Virus record (IMG/VR): IMGVR_UViG_3300042922_000227
Location: 1-43,197 of that record
Direction: 5' to 3' (one strand)
Length of the DNA stretch: 43,197 bases
DNA from: a virus
The notes beneath the pieces are model-generated. The model ran no database searches, was not told where the DNA came from, and worked only from the letters and a program-made list of their open reading frames with translations. The first letter of the stretch is position 1; each line of letters begins with the position of its first letter. Of the stretch, positions 17,813 to 35,739 are shown in pieces. The position numbers were made by a program, and so were the translations under genes.

Positions 17813-17940
17813 CAGTCCCGGTCCTCTACGACGTCAGACATGACCTGGTTGATCTCGGCCACTGTCTGGGGGTGCGGGGTGAGTGGTTCCGGCCACCGGT
17901 TGGTACGCGTTCGGTGGCTGCTGATGTCGTCTTCAGGCAT
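17812..17940 (-). CDS. hypothetical 42-aa protein
   Basis: A short frame from ATG 17940 to TGA 17812 that overlaps the HNH start by one base. The sequence (MPEDDISSHRTRTNRWPEPL, ending VAEINQVMSDVVEDRD) is acidic and helical at the C-terminus. No strong ribosome-binding site is visible. Coupling to the HNH gene is the main support. Function unknown. Confidence 0.45.
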   Translation of the reverse strand: MPEDDISSHRTRTNRWPEPLTPHPQTVAEINQVMSDVVEDRD

Positions 17941-31183: not shown

Positions 31184-31290
31184 AGCGCACCCCCGCAAGC
31201 GATGCCGACAGCGGCGACGACGAGCGTGACACCGACCAGGGTGAGGAAGGCGCCGATGATGCGGTTCTCGAACCGCTCCTGCCGGGTCAC
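31180..31290 (-). CDS. 36-aa single-helix membrane protein
   Basis: GTG 31290 overlaps the stop of the HTH gene upstream (GTGA) and its stop overlaps the next GTG (GTGA). The peptide MTRQERFENRIIGAFLTLVG is followed by VTLVVAAVGIACGGAL, one transmembrane helix. It forms a pair with the next membrane gene. Confidence 0.6.
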   Translation of the reverse strand: MTRQERFENRIIGAFLTLVGVTLVVAAVGIACGGAL

Positions 31291-31493
31291 GAGACGGGCC
31301 TCTCCGACGGGAGGGACGCGAGCCAACGCTCACCCTCAGCCTTCGTGATGAGCGGCTTCATCTTCGCCGGGTACGACGCGACGAGGTCGCCGGCGCTGAT
31401 CGCTTCGCGGACGGTCGTGACCGAGAGGTCAACGGCCTTCGCGAAGTTGGGGATGGAGTACGCGAGCTTGTCGAGTACGGGGGTGTCGCTCAT
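31287..31493 (-). CDS. excisionase-like HTH protein
   Basis: 68 aa. The sequence LAYSIPNFAKAVDLSVTTVREAISAG, DLVASYPAKMKPLITKAEGERWL matches the MerR/HTH_17 excisionase-type domain: a helix-turn-helix, a turn and a beta hairpin that reads the DNA, then a final helix. As second gene of the early operon it is a good candidate for Xis, directing integrase to excise the prophage, or for a transcription regulator. Confidence 0.75.
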   Translation of the reverse strand: MSDTPVLDKLAYSIPNFAKAVDLSVTTVREAISAGDLVASYPAKMKPLITKAEGERWLASLPSERPVS

Positions 31494-31702
31494 GCTGCGG
31501 CTCCCATCAGTTCGTGGTGGGGCTGGCCGAGGGCGATCGCAATGCGGTCGAAGTGGTCGAGGTCGAAGGGGGCGTTGCCGTCGAGCTCGTCGGTGAGCAG
31601 GGTTACGGTGATGCCTGTGGCGGCTGCGAGGTCAGCGTCGGTGCGGTTCATCGACCGCAGCGACTGCCTGATCCTCCTGCCGGGGATGGTGGTGTGCGTC
31701 AT
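31490..31702 (-). CDS. Cro-like HTH regulator, first gene of early operon
   Basis: 70 aa from ATG 31702; the in-frame Mets at 31723 and upstream lie in the promoter. The XRE/Cro fold is IRQSLRSMNRTDADLAAATG, ITVTLLTDELDGNAPFDLDH, FDRIAIALG. The gene diverges from the repressor, and its ATG lies 7 bases after a -10 box, so its mRNA would be leaderless. It should oppose the repressor in the lysis-lysogeny decision. Confidence 0.8.
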   Translation of the reverse strand: MTHTTIPGRRIRQSLRSMNRTDADLAAATGITVTLLTDELDGNAPFDLDHFDRIAIALGQPHHELMGAAA

Positions 31703-31709
31703 AAGTGCA

Positions 31710-31738
31710 ACCATACGCGTCACTAGTGACGTGTGCAA
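31710..31738 (-). promoter_or_regulatory. early leftward promoter with operator in its spacer
   Basis: On the minus strand: -35 TTGCAC (31733-31738), a 17-bp spacer, -10 TATGGT (31710-31715). The predicted start is at or next to the A of the Cro-like ATG (31702), giving a leaderless transcript. Confidence 0.75.
31718..31731. promoter_or_regulatory. palindromic operator
   Basis: CGTCACTAGTGACG is a perfect 14-bp palindrome inside the promoter spacer. A copy at 35549-35562 matches it at 13 of 15 positions when the next T is included. It is the best candidate for the repressor/Cro binding site. Confidence 0.75.
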
Positions 31739-31795: not shown

Positions 31796-31801
31796 GTGCA
31801 A
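31796..31801 (+). promoter_or_regulatory. start codon of repressor without ribosome-binding site
   Basis: No Shine-Dalgarno sequence precedes GTG 31796; the only purines upstream are ACGGA. This decides for leaderless translation over the upstream in-frame start at 31733, which lies beyond the promoter. Confidence 0.45.
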
Positions 31802-32191
31802 GCAGACGACGAGAAGCAGATCAGCGCCCTGAACCGTGCCATGGCAGCGGTCCTCCGCGGAGCCATCGCATCCGAGGGGATCAGCCAGAAGCAGCTGGCA
31901 GCGAAGACGGGGTACTCCCTCGCGACGATCCAACGCAACCTCGCCGGCGAACGGAAGTTCAACATCGACCAGGTCGAGAAAATCGCCGCCGCCCTCAACA
32001 TGTCCGCACCGGACCTGATGAGCCGCGCAGTCGAGTGGCGCTCAACACGAATGTCAGAGGCTGCCCCCGACAATGTGACCCAGCTGCAGCCCCGGAAGCG
32101 CGTCGAAGACATGACCGTGGAAGAGATCGAGCAGCTGAAGCATGCGGCCACCGTCGACCCTGAGATGGATGAGCCGGAACAGTTCGACTAA
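31796..32191 (+). CDS. immunity repressor, XRE/HTH_3 family
   Basis: 131 aa. Residues about 12-75 form the HTH_3 fold: LRGAIASEGISQKQLAAKTG, YSLATIQRNLAGERKFNIDQ, VEKIAAALNMSAPDLM. The C-terminal half is acidic and polar (LQPRKRVEDMTVEEIEQLKH) with no protease or RecA-cleavable domain. It diverges from the Cro-like gene and is followed by an ImmA-like gene. It should hold the early leftward promoter shut in the lysogen. The start is chosen because the -10 box lies just before GTG 31796. Confidence 0.85.
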   Translation: MQADDEKQISALNRAMAAVLRGAIASEGISQKQLAAKTGYSLATIQRNLAGERKFNIDQVEKIAAALNMSAPDLMSRAVEWRSTRMSEAAPDNVTQLQPRKRVEDMTVEEIEQLKHAATVDPEMDEPEQFD

Positions 32192-32210: not shown

Positions 32211-32573
32211 TTGTACGACCCGTACCAACACGCGGAAGAGCTCAGCATTCAGGTGCTGCACCGTCCGCTCCGCACAGCACACGAGATGTGGCTGCCGGAC
32301 CACAACATCATCGTCGTGAAGTCCGGCCTGCGAAGGATCCACGACCGGTCAGCGCTCGCCCACGGCATCGCACACGCGGCGCTCGGGCATCCGGACGACC
32401 GGCCGAAGCATGAGGTGCAGGCGGACCGGTATGCGGCTGAGCGCCTGATCGATGAGGACCAGGCGCTCGCGCTGTGCCGGTGGACGCAGGACCCGGCAAG
32501 GATCGCCGCGGAGCTGGGTGTGTCAGGGCGACTCTGGCGGGTGTGGGCGAACACACACCGGCAGGTCGCCTAG
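32211..32573 (+). CDS. ImmA/IrrE-like protein with degenerate HExxH
   Basis: 120 aa from TTG 32211 (GGGGG upstream); ATG 32169 would overlap the repressor end. It has the phage ImmA layout: YDPYQHAEELSIQVLHRPLR, HEMWLPDHNIIVVKSGLRRI, then LAHGIAHAALGH, KHEVQADRYAAERLI. The HExxH zinc motif reads H51-G-I-A-H55: both His are kept and the catalytic Glu is Gly. ImmA-type peptidases cleave or unlock phage repressors. Loss of the Glu suggests a non-catalytic binding role. The gene is co-oriented with the repressor. Confidence 0.85.
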   Translation: MYDPYQHAEELSIQVLHRPLRTAHEMWLPDHNIIVVKSGLRRIHDRSALAHGIAHAALGHPDDRPKHEVQADRYAAERLIDEDQALALCRWTQDPARIAAELGVSGRLWRVWANTHRQVA

Positions 32574-32755
32574 TTGTTTGCTCCCTGCTGGGTCAGGCGC
32601 GCCATCCACTTGGCCTTCTGCTTCTCGTCCAGCCCGACTCCTGCCACGAGCGGGTCGCGGCCGGACATGACGAGCTGCAACGCCGCCTCGTAGGTCATCA
32701 CGTGGCCGTTCGCTTCGATGGTCTGCGTGCTGTCGTTGAAGTTCGCGAGGGTCAT
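32570..32755 (-). CDS. hypothetical 61-aa protein after integrase
   Basis: ATG 32755 overlaps the integrase stop by 4 bp. The sequence (MTLANFNDSTQTIEANGHVM, YEAALQLVMSGRDPLVAGVG, LDEKQKAKWMARL) is small and helical. Its stop overlaps that of the convergent ImmA-like gene: both use the CTAG at 32570-32573. Function unknown. Confidence 0.6.
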   Translation of the reverse strand: MTLANFNDSTQTIEANGHVMTYEAALQLVMSGRDPLVAGVGLDEKQKAKWMARLTQQGANN

Positions 32756-34068
32756 GCTGCTTCTCCTTCGTCCGTGGTTCCAAGGGTACGGTCCGACCGT
32801 GTCAACGGCAGGTACGCGGCCCGGAGCGCGTCGCGCAGAGTCTCCCGGTTCTGCCGACCGCGGTAGTGACGCGACACCACGAGGCTCGAGTGCCCGACGA
32901 TGTCCATGATCGTGACCTCGTCGACCCCTGCCGCGTAGAGAAGATCCACGGTCGTGTTGCGAGCGGTGCGGAGCTGCACATCACTGACGCCTGCACGGGT
33001 GAGCACACCGTGCCAGTACGCGTTGTCGGTGGACGGGTCGATCGGTGACCCGTCAAGCACGAGGCCGTCTTTCGTCCGCTTCGGGTCCGAGGTCCACAGC
33101 AGACCGTGCGGGTTCAGTTCCGACGCAGCCGTCTCCACCCGCCGTTCGATGATGGACCGGAGCGGGTCAACGAGAGGGATGATCCGCCATCCCGCTTCGG
33201 ATTTTGGACGGGACAACCACAGCCCGCCCTCGAGGTGCCGGTACTCCCGGTCCTCGGGCGCGTTCAAGTACCGTTCCGGGCACTTTGCTCCCTGCTTCTC
33301 ACCACAGTGCGGTTCCCACGGCTTCGCCGGGTTGCAGCCGTGCGACCACGAGAACCGCTTCAACTGCCACGACAGGTCGAGTTCATCCGTGACGCGGTCC
33401 AGTTCGAGGCCGATGACCTCACCCTGGCGGGCGCCGGCGAGGAGCGCGGTCGCGACGCGGGAACCTAGACGTTCATGCTGCACCGTCTCGAGGACCCGGA
33501 TGCCATCGTCAACGTCAAGGCGGGGGAGTTGCACCTTCTTCTTCTTCGGTTGGTCAACGAGGGTGGCGACGTTCCGGCTGACGCGTCCGTCGCGCATGGC
33601 GTCGCGGAGTGCGAGGGACAGCACCCGGTGCGCCTGCTGCGCGGAAGCACCACCGAGTCCCTTCTCACGGATTGCCTGCTCCACCTTCCGTACATGCTGC
33701 GGGGTCAGCTTGTCGAGGCGGGTCTTCCCGATCGCCGGCACGATGTACTGCTCAATGCTGGTCCGGTACGACGCGATCGTCTTCGGGGCGATCTTCTTCG
33801 AGTGGATGTGCGCGAACCAGTACCGGATCCACGACGTGAGCGTCTGCGACGCGGTCGGCATGTCCCCGATGTCGGCGAGGTCTTTCTGCAGCCGCTTCAA
33901 CTCCGCGACGACGACGGCTTTCGACTTGTTGCGGACGAACTTCCGGCGCCGCTTCCCCGTCGTGGACGGCAGCTCGAGGACCGCCTGCCAGTACTTCAAT
34001 GGCTTGGTCGGGTCCTTCGGGACACGGAACAGGGCGCCCTCACCAGCACCACGCTGAATCGCACCCAT
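32752..34068 (-). CDS. int: tyrosine integrase
   Basis: 438 aa. Residues 5-60 form an arm-binding domain, 70-165 the SAM-like core-binding domain, 175-420 the catalytic domain. Active site: R214 (AGARQGE), K289 (RPKSEAGWR), R370, H393 (GHSS) and Y402 (SRHYRGR). The HxxR box reads L-R367-T-A-R370-N-T, so the usual His is Arg. A Cys/His cluster (HGCNPAKPWEPHCGEKQGAK, then C) at 243-263 is found in related actinophage integrases and may bind zinc. It recombines attP with the tRNA-Lys gene. ATG overlaps the upstream stop by one base. Confidence 0.93.
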   Translation of the reverse strand: MGAIQRGAGEGALFRVPKDPTKPLKYWQAVLELPSTTGKRRRKFVRNKSKAVVVAELKRLQKDLADIGDMPTASQTLTSWIRYWFAHIHSKKIAPKTIASYRTSIEQYIVPAIGKTRLDKLTPQHVRKVEQAIREKGLGGASAQQAHRVLSLALRDAMRDGRVSRNVATLVDQPKKKKVQLPRLDVDDGIRVLETVQHERLGSRVATALLAGARQGEVIGLELDRVTDELDLSWQLKRFSWSHGCNPAKPWEPHCGEKQGAKCPERYLNAPEDREYRHLEGGLWLSRPKSEAGWRIIPLVDPLRSIIERRVETAASELNPHGLLWTSDPKRTKDGLVLDGSPIDPSTDNAYWHGVLTRAGVSDVQLRTARNTTVDLLYAAGVDEVTIMDIVGHSSLVVSRHYRGRQNRETLRDALRAAYLPLTRSDRTLGTTDEGEAA

Positions 34069-34211
34069 CAGGTCTCCTCTGCGGGCTCAGGCTGCTCCCA
34101 CTCACGCGGCGACCACTCGGTCCAGTGGATACGGCCATCGGTCTGGTCGGTCGCGAACCGGTCCCCGCAGTTGATACAGCGCCAGGGACGCTTGCGCTTC
34201 CCGCCACTCAT
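34068..34211 (-). CDS. 47-aa basic protein with CxxC
   Basis: ATG 34211 to TGA 34068, overlapping the integrase start (TGATG). The sequence MSGGKRKRPWRCINCGDRFA, TDQTDGRIHWTEWSPREWEQ has one CxxC and a basic N-terminus. It may be a small zinc protein. Translational coupling to integrase is the main evidence. Confidence 0.6.
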   Translation of the reverse strand: MSGGKRKRPWRCINCGDRFATDQTDGRIHWTEWSPREWEQPEPAEET

Positions 34212-34591
34212 CGGTCGGCCCCCTTCTGGAGCAGGGCGAACACGGCGTCGGTGATGCCCTGTACGCGGCGGGTGGCCTGCACGGAATGGGCAGTCTCGTT
34301 GCCGGTCCGCAGTTCGGCAGCGATGGCCTCCGCGATCTGCTCGCGCGTCGGCAGGGACGGGTGCTCGACCGGCACAGGGGTGCGCCGCAGTTCGTCGAGA
34401 GCATCCGAATCGCGCTCCATTTGGGAACGGGCGTCGGCGATCGGCACCGGGCGCTCGATGCGCATCAATGGGTCTGGGTAAGGCCCGTCGCTCTTGATCG
34501 AGGTGTACCGATCCTCTGGCGCGACGTCATGCCACGACGGGTTGTCGCCGTTGTCCCTGTCCGCGATCACGCGGTAATCCTGGCCGGTCAT
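34208..34591 (-). CDS. hypothetical 127-aa protein
   Basis: ATG 34591 overlaps the upstream stop by 4 bp. The N-terminal half is polar (YRVIADRDNGDNPSWHDVAP), the C-terminal half helical (SQMERDSDALDELRRTPVPV, REQIAEAIAAELRTGNETAH). No family recognised. It is part of the operon that ends with integrase. Confidence 0.6.
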   Translation of the reverse strand: MTGQDYRVIADRDNGDNPSWHDVAPEDRYTSIKSDGPYPDPLMRIERPVPIADARSQMERDSDALDELRRTPVPVEHPSLPTREQIAEAIAAELRTGNETAHSVQATRRVQGITDAVFALLQKGADR

Positions 34592-34776
34592 GCTCGTCCC
34601 GCCTTCTGGTCTCGCTCGTACTGGACTGCTCGCCCGTAGTTGACGAGGAAGTCGAGCTCGGTGTCGTCGATGCCGTTGCGGCTTGCCCGGTACACCGTCG
34701 CTTCCAGCAGGGGAAGGCTGTTGCCGGCGTTCAATGCCGACAGGTCTTTCGTCTGCTGCTCCGTGAGTCGTGTCAT
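34588..34776 (-). CDS. hypothetical 62-aa protein
   Basis: ATG 34776 with a strong AAGGAGG upstream. The sequence MTRLTEQQTKDLSALNAGNS, LLEATVYRASRNGIDDTELD, FLVNYGRAVQYERDQK is helical. No family recognised. First gene after the 34918-34945 hairpin. Confidence 0.6.
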   Translation of the reverse strand: MTRLTEQQTKDLSALNAGNSLPLLEATVYRASRNGIDDTELDFLVNYGRAVQYERDQKAGRA

Positions 34777-34945: not shown

Positions 34946-35320
34946 TTATTCGTTGGGCATCAGAGCATGGCGCTGGACCGCGTGGTCCCAACGGACGTTG
35001 AGGCCCAGGATGTTGACGCAGGTGTCGCAGACGGGGAGGTCGTCCCCTGCTTGGAGCAGCACCTTGCGGTGCTGGCCGCTGCTGGTTTCAGCAACCGGCA
35101 GATTCTCTGCATGGTCGGCGCTGGTACGAGAGACAGAGAAGTTGCTCTTGTCCAGTAGGCCGTCGAGGATTCGGAGCGTGCGCTCCGAGAACTGGTCCCG
35201 CTTCACGAGCTCTTCCTGCGCGGCGTAGACCGCGGCGTTCCAGCCAGACACGTACGCCTCCCGGGGTGACCCGATGCCTGCAGTGTCGGTTCGGTTCCAG
35301 GTGTCGAGTGCTTCGCTCAT
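34946..35320 (-). CDS. hypothetical 124-aa protein
   Basis: ATG 35320 with GGAGGAG upstream. The N-terminal half is helical with Trp (EAYVSGWNAAVYAAQEELVK). The C-terminal part has a CDTCVNI pair and HALMPNE, perhaps a half zinc site. It is the first gene left of attP. Function unknown. Confidence 0.6.
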   Translation of the reverse strand: MSEALDTWNRTDTAGIGSPREAYVSGWNAAVYAAQEELVKRDQFSERTLRILDGLLDKSNFSVSRTSADHAENLPVAETSSGQHRKVLLQAGDDLPVCDTCVNILGLNVRWDHAVQRHALMPNE

Positions 35321-35519
35321 GTTCTCCTCCTGCGGTGGTGCAAGTTGGTTCTTTCTGGTAGTGGCGACGCGTCAGCTTCGGGTGAAGACGCGGCGTGTGC
35401 GCTGGGGTGCTGGCGGCAGGTTTCGTGCCGCTGCGGTCTCCTGCGGGCGTGTTCGTGGTGCATCCGCCTCGTGTATCCATTGGTTTGTGACCGTACGGGG
35501 TCGTGCGATCACATTGGAC

Positions 35520-35548
35520 ACGCTACACGTCCGAAAGGCAGTCCGCAA
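35520..35548 (-). promoter_or_regulatory. possible leftward promoter beside attP
   Basis: On the minus strand: -35 TTGCGG (35543-35548), 17-bp spacer, -10 TAGCGT (35520-35525). It abuts the second operator and would drive the 35320-to-integrase genes. Confidence 0.4.
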
Positions 35549-35562
35549 CGTCAGAAGTGACG
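35549..35562. promoter_or_regulatory. second operator copy
   Basis: CGTCAGAAGTGACG, with flanks AA...TT that extend the dyad to 18 bp, 7 bp from the tRNA half at attP. It matches the 31718-31731 operator closely. Confidence 0.65.
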
Positions 35563-35569
35563 TTCACCA

Positions 35570-35616
35570 ACTGACTCTTAATCAGTGGGTTCTCGGTTCG
35601 AGTCCGAGGGGGTGCA
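35570..35616 (+). other. attP: 3' half of a tRNA-Lys(CTT) gene
   Basis: The sequence folds as the 3' part of a tRNA: anticodon stem ACTGA/TCAGT around loop CTCTTAA (anticodon CTT, 35577-35579), variable loop GGGTT, T-arm CTCGG-TTCGAGT-CCGAG (35592-35608), acceptor strand GGGGTGC and discriminator A35616, with no encoded CCA. No D-arm or 5' acceptor strand (GCACCCC) is present, so this is not a working tRNA gene. It is the identity region that lets the integrase target a host tRNA-Lys gene and rebuild it. Confidence 0.9.
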
Positions 35617-35620
35617 CGGC

Positions 35621-35675
35621 AAAGGCCCGATCAGTGTATCCCCGGTAGCATCCCCCGGGTTCTGATCGGGCCTTT
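35621..35675 (+). terminator. terminator just after the tRNA half
   Basis: Fourteen-bp arms AAAGGCCCGATCAG (35621-35634) and CTGATCGGGCCTTT (35662-35675), loop 27 nt, ending in TTT. It starts 4 nt after the tRNA end, so it would end the rebuilt tRNA transcript in the lysogen. Confidence 0.8.
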
Positions 35676-35739
35676 CGTGTACCCCCTGACCCTTCACCGG
35701 GACGCGACACGCCCGCCCGTCGTTCGGCCACGGACTTCG

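Follow-up and report, generated by a model that had tools for sequence, protein, structure and literature searches.

A candidate immunity operator at the predicted integrase promoter within the attachment region of a tRNA-integrated phage

Results

Genes and features at the locus

The stretch of DNA analysed here, which we call the window, is a virus record of 43,197 bases with a G+C content of 66%. The phage seems to be linked to Curtobacterium as its host genus. Four contigs encode an integrase that is 85-93% identical to that of the window, and the host flanks of two of these four are matched at 97-98% by Curtobacterium genomes. Searches with exact integrase peptides in genome contigs returned no match, and neither did a search of 66 host-genus genomes with the Cro-like protein. 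The genes relevant here (Table 1) are arranged with the Cro-like and excisionase-like genes reading leftward, the XRE repressor and an ImmA/IrrE-type protease reading rightward, and a tyrosine integrase again reading leftward. Upstream of the integrase there are three small genes, followed by a tRNA-like segment and the gene of an HNH endonuclease.

Table 1. Positions of the immunity, integrase and attachment features in the window.
Feature	Position	Strand	Basis or remark
Excisionase-like winged HTH protein, second lytic-operon gene	31287..31493	-	phrog_66 excisionase, E 2e-4
Cro-like HTH protein, first lytic-operon gene	31490..31702	-	phrog_4583/2328; relatives
Leftward lytic promoter TTGCAC-17-TATGGT	31710..31738	-
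Switch operator GCGTCACTAGTGACGT	31717..31732		In spacer of leftward lytic promoter; same position in five phages
Immunity repressor (XRE/HTH_3)	31796..32191	+	PF01381, phrog_4583
ImmA/IrrE-type (M78) metalloprotease	32211..32573	+	PF06114
Tyrosine integrase	32752..34068	-	phrog_1, PF00589
Three small genes between promoter and integrase, function unassigned	34208-34594, 34588-34776, 34946-35320	-
Two probable Int arm-type sites GTGYATCC, P arm	35458..35478 (35458, 35471)	+	Repeats conserved in relatives
-10 element TAGCGT, integrase-operon promoter (predicted)	35520..35525	-	TA[GC]CGT, spacing 17, four phages
O2, weaker operator-like inverted repeat in promoter spacer	35527..35542		Centre 21 bp from that of O1
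-35 element TTGCGG, integrase-operon promoter (predicted)	35543..35548	-	TTGCGR in four phages
O1, 16-bp palindrome ACGTCA-GAAG-TGACGT, candidate immunity-type operator	35548..35563		Centre at about -42 of the integrase-operon promoter
attP core, identical to 3' part of host tRNA-Lys(CTT)	35568..35617	+	attL/attR of two prophages
Anticodon loop CTCTTAA flanked by ACTGA/TCAGT, probable 7-bp strand-exchange region	35575..35581	+	Exact overlap is an inference
Probable Int arm-type sites, P' arm	35634..35684 (35634, 35677; weaker 35647)	+	Inside terminator-like hairpin

In the lysis/lysogeny switch the operator forms the spacer of the lytic promoter. The same arrangement, TTGNAC-17-TANNNT with the operator as the spacer, occurs in the window and in the related phages L003, L004, L005 and L006, with half-sites ACGTCA/GCGTCA in the window and L006, ACCTCA twice in L003, ACGTCA/ACCGCA in L004 and ACGTCC/GTGTCC in L005. 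The ATG of the Cro-like gene lies about 7 nt past the -10 element in the window, and its mRNA is likely to be leaderless. The starts of both the Cro-like gene (31702) and the repressor gene (31796) apparently stand at the 5' end of their transcripts, and the -10 elements are conserved in relatives.

A site matching the switch operator lies beside the attachment site

An earlier note on this DNA had paired CGTCAGAAGTGACGT (35549-35563) with CGTCACTAGTGACGT of the switch (31718-31732) as near-identical operator copies. Both are present, and no other CGTCA-N4-TGACG site occurs in the 43,197 bases. A scan with the switch 15-mer, allowing up to two mismatches, likewise returned no further site in the window, where 100 dinucleotide-preserving shuffles gave a mean of 0.15 sites and a largest count of 2; the many random copies that the note had named as telling against its proposal were not found. 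Relaxing the CGTCA-N4-TGACG pattern by one base produced 9 matches against 4.9 by chance, a number reached in 10 of 100 shuffles. Since such matches are not clearly commoner than chance, there is no sign of a dispersed operator array. The third-best operator-like site of the window (ACGTCAGACATGACCT, 17831-17846) is distant from both switch and attachment site and is probably a chance occurrence. When the whole collection was scanned with GTCA-N4-TGACGTTGCG, 119 matches were obtained, almost all of them unrelated.

The full palindrome (O1) is an inverted repeat of the form 6-N4-6. It is adjacent to the tRNA segment, as the earlier note held; however, the palindrome measures 16 bp rather than 15, and the identity with tRNA-Lys begins only 4 bp away (at 35568), the 7 bp given previously corresponding roughly to the anticodon stem. 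A half-site model trained on switch operators alone, with which all positions were scored, placed O1 first in the window, L003, L004 and L006, ahead even of the switch operator, and the rank held when each phage's own switch operator was omitted from the model. None of 40 simulated sequences of 43 kb (third-order Markov) attained the score of O1. The palindrome is unchanged in L003 and L006 and differs by one base in L004. In its dyad symmetry and its match to the phage's own switch operator, O1 has the character of an immunity operator of the repressor/Cro type, and such inverted repeats would fit an XRE dimer better than direct repeats would.

The predicted integrase promoter and a second site

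The promoter-like sequence TTGCGG-17-TAGCGT, which the earlier note had read as directed toward the integrase, is indeed present on the minus strand. In the window, L003, L004 and L006, the four close phages (group 1) within which conservation was assessed for this lineage, O1 is followed on that strand by TTGCGR-17-TA[GC]CGT at constant spacing. The -35 element and the palindrome overlap by one base, and the centre of O1 falls about 42 bp upstream of the predicted start of the integrase operon. Both the -35 and the -10 element match the consensus poorly, and a strict sigma-70 consensus scan called neither this promoter nor that of the switch.

The spacer of the predicted promoter contains O2, whose left and right half-sites are ACTGCC/ACGTCC in the window, ACGGCC/ACGTCC in L003, GCGGCA/ACGTCA in L004 and ACGGCT/ACGTCT in L006. 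By inspection of these four sequences, position 6 appears to change jointly on both sides, a pattern that is suggestive only. In the switch-only model O2 ranks third in L004 and fifth in L003. A 45-aa frame (35512-35372), which begins with GTG in a leaderless-like position after the integrase promoter, was considered and rejected as a gene. It remains open in relatives; the changes within it are concentrated in the first and second codon positions, and this avoidance of third positions points to conserved DNA rather than protein.

The attachment site

Searching with the core pattern showed that two contigs carry it twice and a third carries it once. In both two-copy contigs, the tRNA-Lys(CTT) gene is completed by one core, beyond which phage DNA begins (attL); the second core comes after the phage P arm and leads into host sequence (attR). 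The attP core is thus confirmed by the attL and attR junctions of two related prophages in Curtobacterium. In the window and in L130, attP is undivided. Position 35600 is the site of a G/A difference that, in the L131/L069 prophage, travels with the P' arm; this places the crossover 5' of it, and strand exchange most likely takes place in the anticodon loop. The same tRNA-Lys(CTT) is used by two integrase lineages whose proteins are 51% identical (L283 on the one hand, L129 and L131 on the other).

Conserved GTGYATCC repeats, two in the P arm and two or three in the P' arm, are probable Int arm sites. O1 lies between those of the P arm and the core, as does the predicted integrase promoter, which is thus situated within the att region of a tRNA-integrated phage. 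As an arm-type site itself O1 was ruled out, the GTGYATCC motif being absent from it; a Xis- or Apl-like site is unlikely, O1 being an inverted rather than a direct repeat. Directly after the tRNA core, the P' arm (35610-35686) forms a strong hairpin with a T-rich end that also carries its probable arm-type sites, and after integration this hairpin would take over from the terminator of the host tRNA-Lys.

Operator-like sites at switch and attachment region in other lineages

Four phages of a second group (L268, L269, L270 and L279) have integrases that are 66-70% identical at the DNA level, and use a different tRNA. Their integrase promoters read TTGC[AG][AG]-18-TATCGT and contain [TC]GTCA-N4-TGNC inside the spacer. 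Sites of the TTGTCAGATGTGGCAA type are found at the switches of L268, L270 and L279, and L270 has AAGTCAGAAGTGACGG within the spacer of its lytic promoter. Under a model built from the switches of L268 and L270, the att site took the top rank among 13,986 positions in the held-out L269 and the second rank in the held-out L279. In this group about 33 bp separate the operator from the core, compared with 4 bp in the window lineage, which indicates that the operator keeps its position with respect to the promoter and not to the core.

The third group is represented by L283, from another Microbacteriaceae genus, which has the same tRNA-Lys target as the window, an integrase 51% identical in protein sequence, and an unrelated operator. 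Here a 13-mer (CATTTGGTTCCAT) is common to the switch and the att region. Of the five TTTGG-N2-CCA sites in the 16-kb locus, three belong to the att region and the other two to the switch; all have the same orientation (regions L283:5353-5428 and L283:7644-7683). Of all observations, we regard this sharing as speaking most clearly for an att copy that is part of the immunity circuit, although a dual regulator resembling Apl would leave the same trace.

The correspondence between switch and att operators is uneven. They change in step in L283 and broadly so in L270, but not in L003 or L269, whose switch sites no longer match their att sites. In L003 one base per half differs (ACCTCA-N4-TGAGGT at the switch, ACGTCA-N4-TGACGT at att). 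Its repressor and Cro-like proteins are only 46-52% identical to those of the window, whereas the att region shares 96% DNA identity. This pairing of strongly diverged immunity genes (L003:758-1608) with an almost unchanged att/integrase operon (L003:4150-5700) has the look of a natural module swap. The operator mismatch may accordingly reflect a recent exchange of the immunity module, tolerance on the part of the repressor, or some other binding protein. A plain comparison of the best 14-mer between att and switch was unusual in six of nine loci (the window, L003, L004, L006, L270 and L283) and not in the remaining L268, L269 and L279. Among phages with more distant integrases (L271, L272, L273, L284 and L288) word comparison revealed no clear shared site; since most of these switches are unmapped, this absence is weak evidence.

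Discussion

From the observed sequences, positions, conservation and prophage junctions, we infer the identity of the binding protein, the function of the promoter and the sign of control. It is likely, in our judgement, that the immunity repressor, or else its Cro-like partner, controls both the lytic and the integrase promoter through matching operators, such that Xis and Int become available at the same time. Together with the weaker O2, O1 would be the immunity-circuit operator of the leftward integrase operon, set between the P-arm Int sites and the core. The XRE-type regulator would close the lytic promoter from within its -35/-10 spacer and would also control the integrase promoter, while the Cro-like protein might compete with it for the operators. 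In a lysogen both promoters would be held closed. Once the repressor is removed, a step for which the ImmA-type protease is the probable agent, the lytic operon, including its excisionase-like gene, and the integrase operon would open together, making Xis and Int simultaneously available for excision. The earlier suggestion that one regulator could serve both the lytic genes and the integrase operon thus appears well supported, the same arrangement being found in relatives and in lineages with other operators.

The sign of control at O1 is more likely to be repression than activation, although a centre near -42 would allow either. Bacteriophage lambda CI, bound at PRM, recruits RNA polymerase. 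By analogy, the repressor at O1 could recruit polymerase so that integrase is made while lysogeny is being established, with O2, 21 bp further downstream in the spacer, shutting the promoter at higher repressor levels. The poor -35 and -10 elements would suit a promoter of this kind. Nevertheless, the only operator of the second lineage lies in the spacer, which is a repressing place, and nothing in the window repressor indicates an ability to activate; we therefore regard activation as improbable.

The earlier note had also considered that O1 might sit within the integration nucleoprotein complex. Its role could then be mainly architectural, a bound Cro-like, Xis-like or repressor protein shaping or blocking that complex in the manner of Apl of phage 186 and Cox of P2 at attP, with any effect on the promoter being secondary. 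The location of O1, with the P-arm sites on one side and the core 4 bp away on the other, is compatible with this, and a Cro-like protein that binds both switch and attP is established in phage 186 (PMC7498355). However, the sites of recombination directionality factors (RDFs) are direct repeats one turn apart and not inverted ones, a separate excisionase-like gene is present, and the distance to the core varies between lineages while the place at the promoter is kept. With the probable Int arm sites elsewhere, the proposal finds no support of its own, and an architectural role seems unlikely to us. Less probable still is that the likeness of O1 to the switch operator is fortuitous or inherited, its binding partner being an unrelated protein of host or phage origin that belongs with the integrase module. 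L003 and L269 do retain the att site though their switch operators differ, but O1 is the best-scoring site in four genomes under a model that was not trained on it, and the different operator of L283 is present at both switch and att.

Repression at matching operators would resolve a difficulty of regulation. Where integrase is transcribed from a promoter of its own within att, it is not obvious how Int and excisionase come to coincide at induction; a copy of the immunity operator at that promoter is a simple answer. If it is true, a phage infecting an immune lysogen would be unable to make integrase. A broader proposition would be that there is a class of Microbacteriaceae phages in which attP holds a cognate operator, the bound repressor both silencing the integrase operon and blocking the excision complex, the operator pair co-evolving, and immunity thereby gating integration. 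In this full form we think it unlikely.

The earlier note had stated that no standard model places an immunity operator in an attP arm. For repressor operators this is close to right in the literature compared, but a Cro-like regulator acting at both switch and attP is classical. The Apl protein of phage 186 and the Cox protein of P2 are Cro-like regulators that are also excisionases, with sites at both places that consist of direct repeats 10-11 bp apart (PMC7498355). The window resembles these systems in that a single phage regulator would have sites at both switch and attP. In contrast to Apl and Cox, which are themselves the RDF, the excisionase-like gene is separate here, and the sites are inverted repeats in common with the switch operator; O1 lacks the direct repeats one helical turn apart that characterise Apl and Cox sites at attP and switch.

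Other systems share single elements of the arrangement. In mycobacteriophage BPs, the early lytic promoter has a short palindromic gp33 operator between its -10 and -35 elements, and further copies stand at other phage promoters (PMC4557955), much as proposed for the window. However, attP of BPs lies inside the repressor gene, its integrase is read from Prep together with the repressor, and its other operators (O6, O27, O55 and O61) are at other genes; in the window attP and the repressor gene are about 3.4 kb apart. The Stl repressor of SaPIbov1 similarly acts as a master repressor that holds down both xis and int, but no site for it was found directly upstream of int, and its mechanism there is described by the authors as 'elusive' (PMC4936726). 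Integrase promoters that overlap att are common. Such a promoter in KplE1 (IntS/TorI) is a target of repression by Int and the RDF, and the study concludes that the transcription of int and that of the RDF are uncoupled (PMC2951348). The window is like KplE1 and P4 in that the integrase would be read from its own, predicted promoter embedded in a tRNA att region, whereas a common immunity-type operator would re-couple the transcription of int and RDF. What would be new within the literature compared is the location of the cognate palindrome in the att region, where it accompanies the integrase promoter; this arrangement appears in three lineages.
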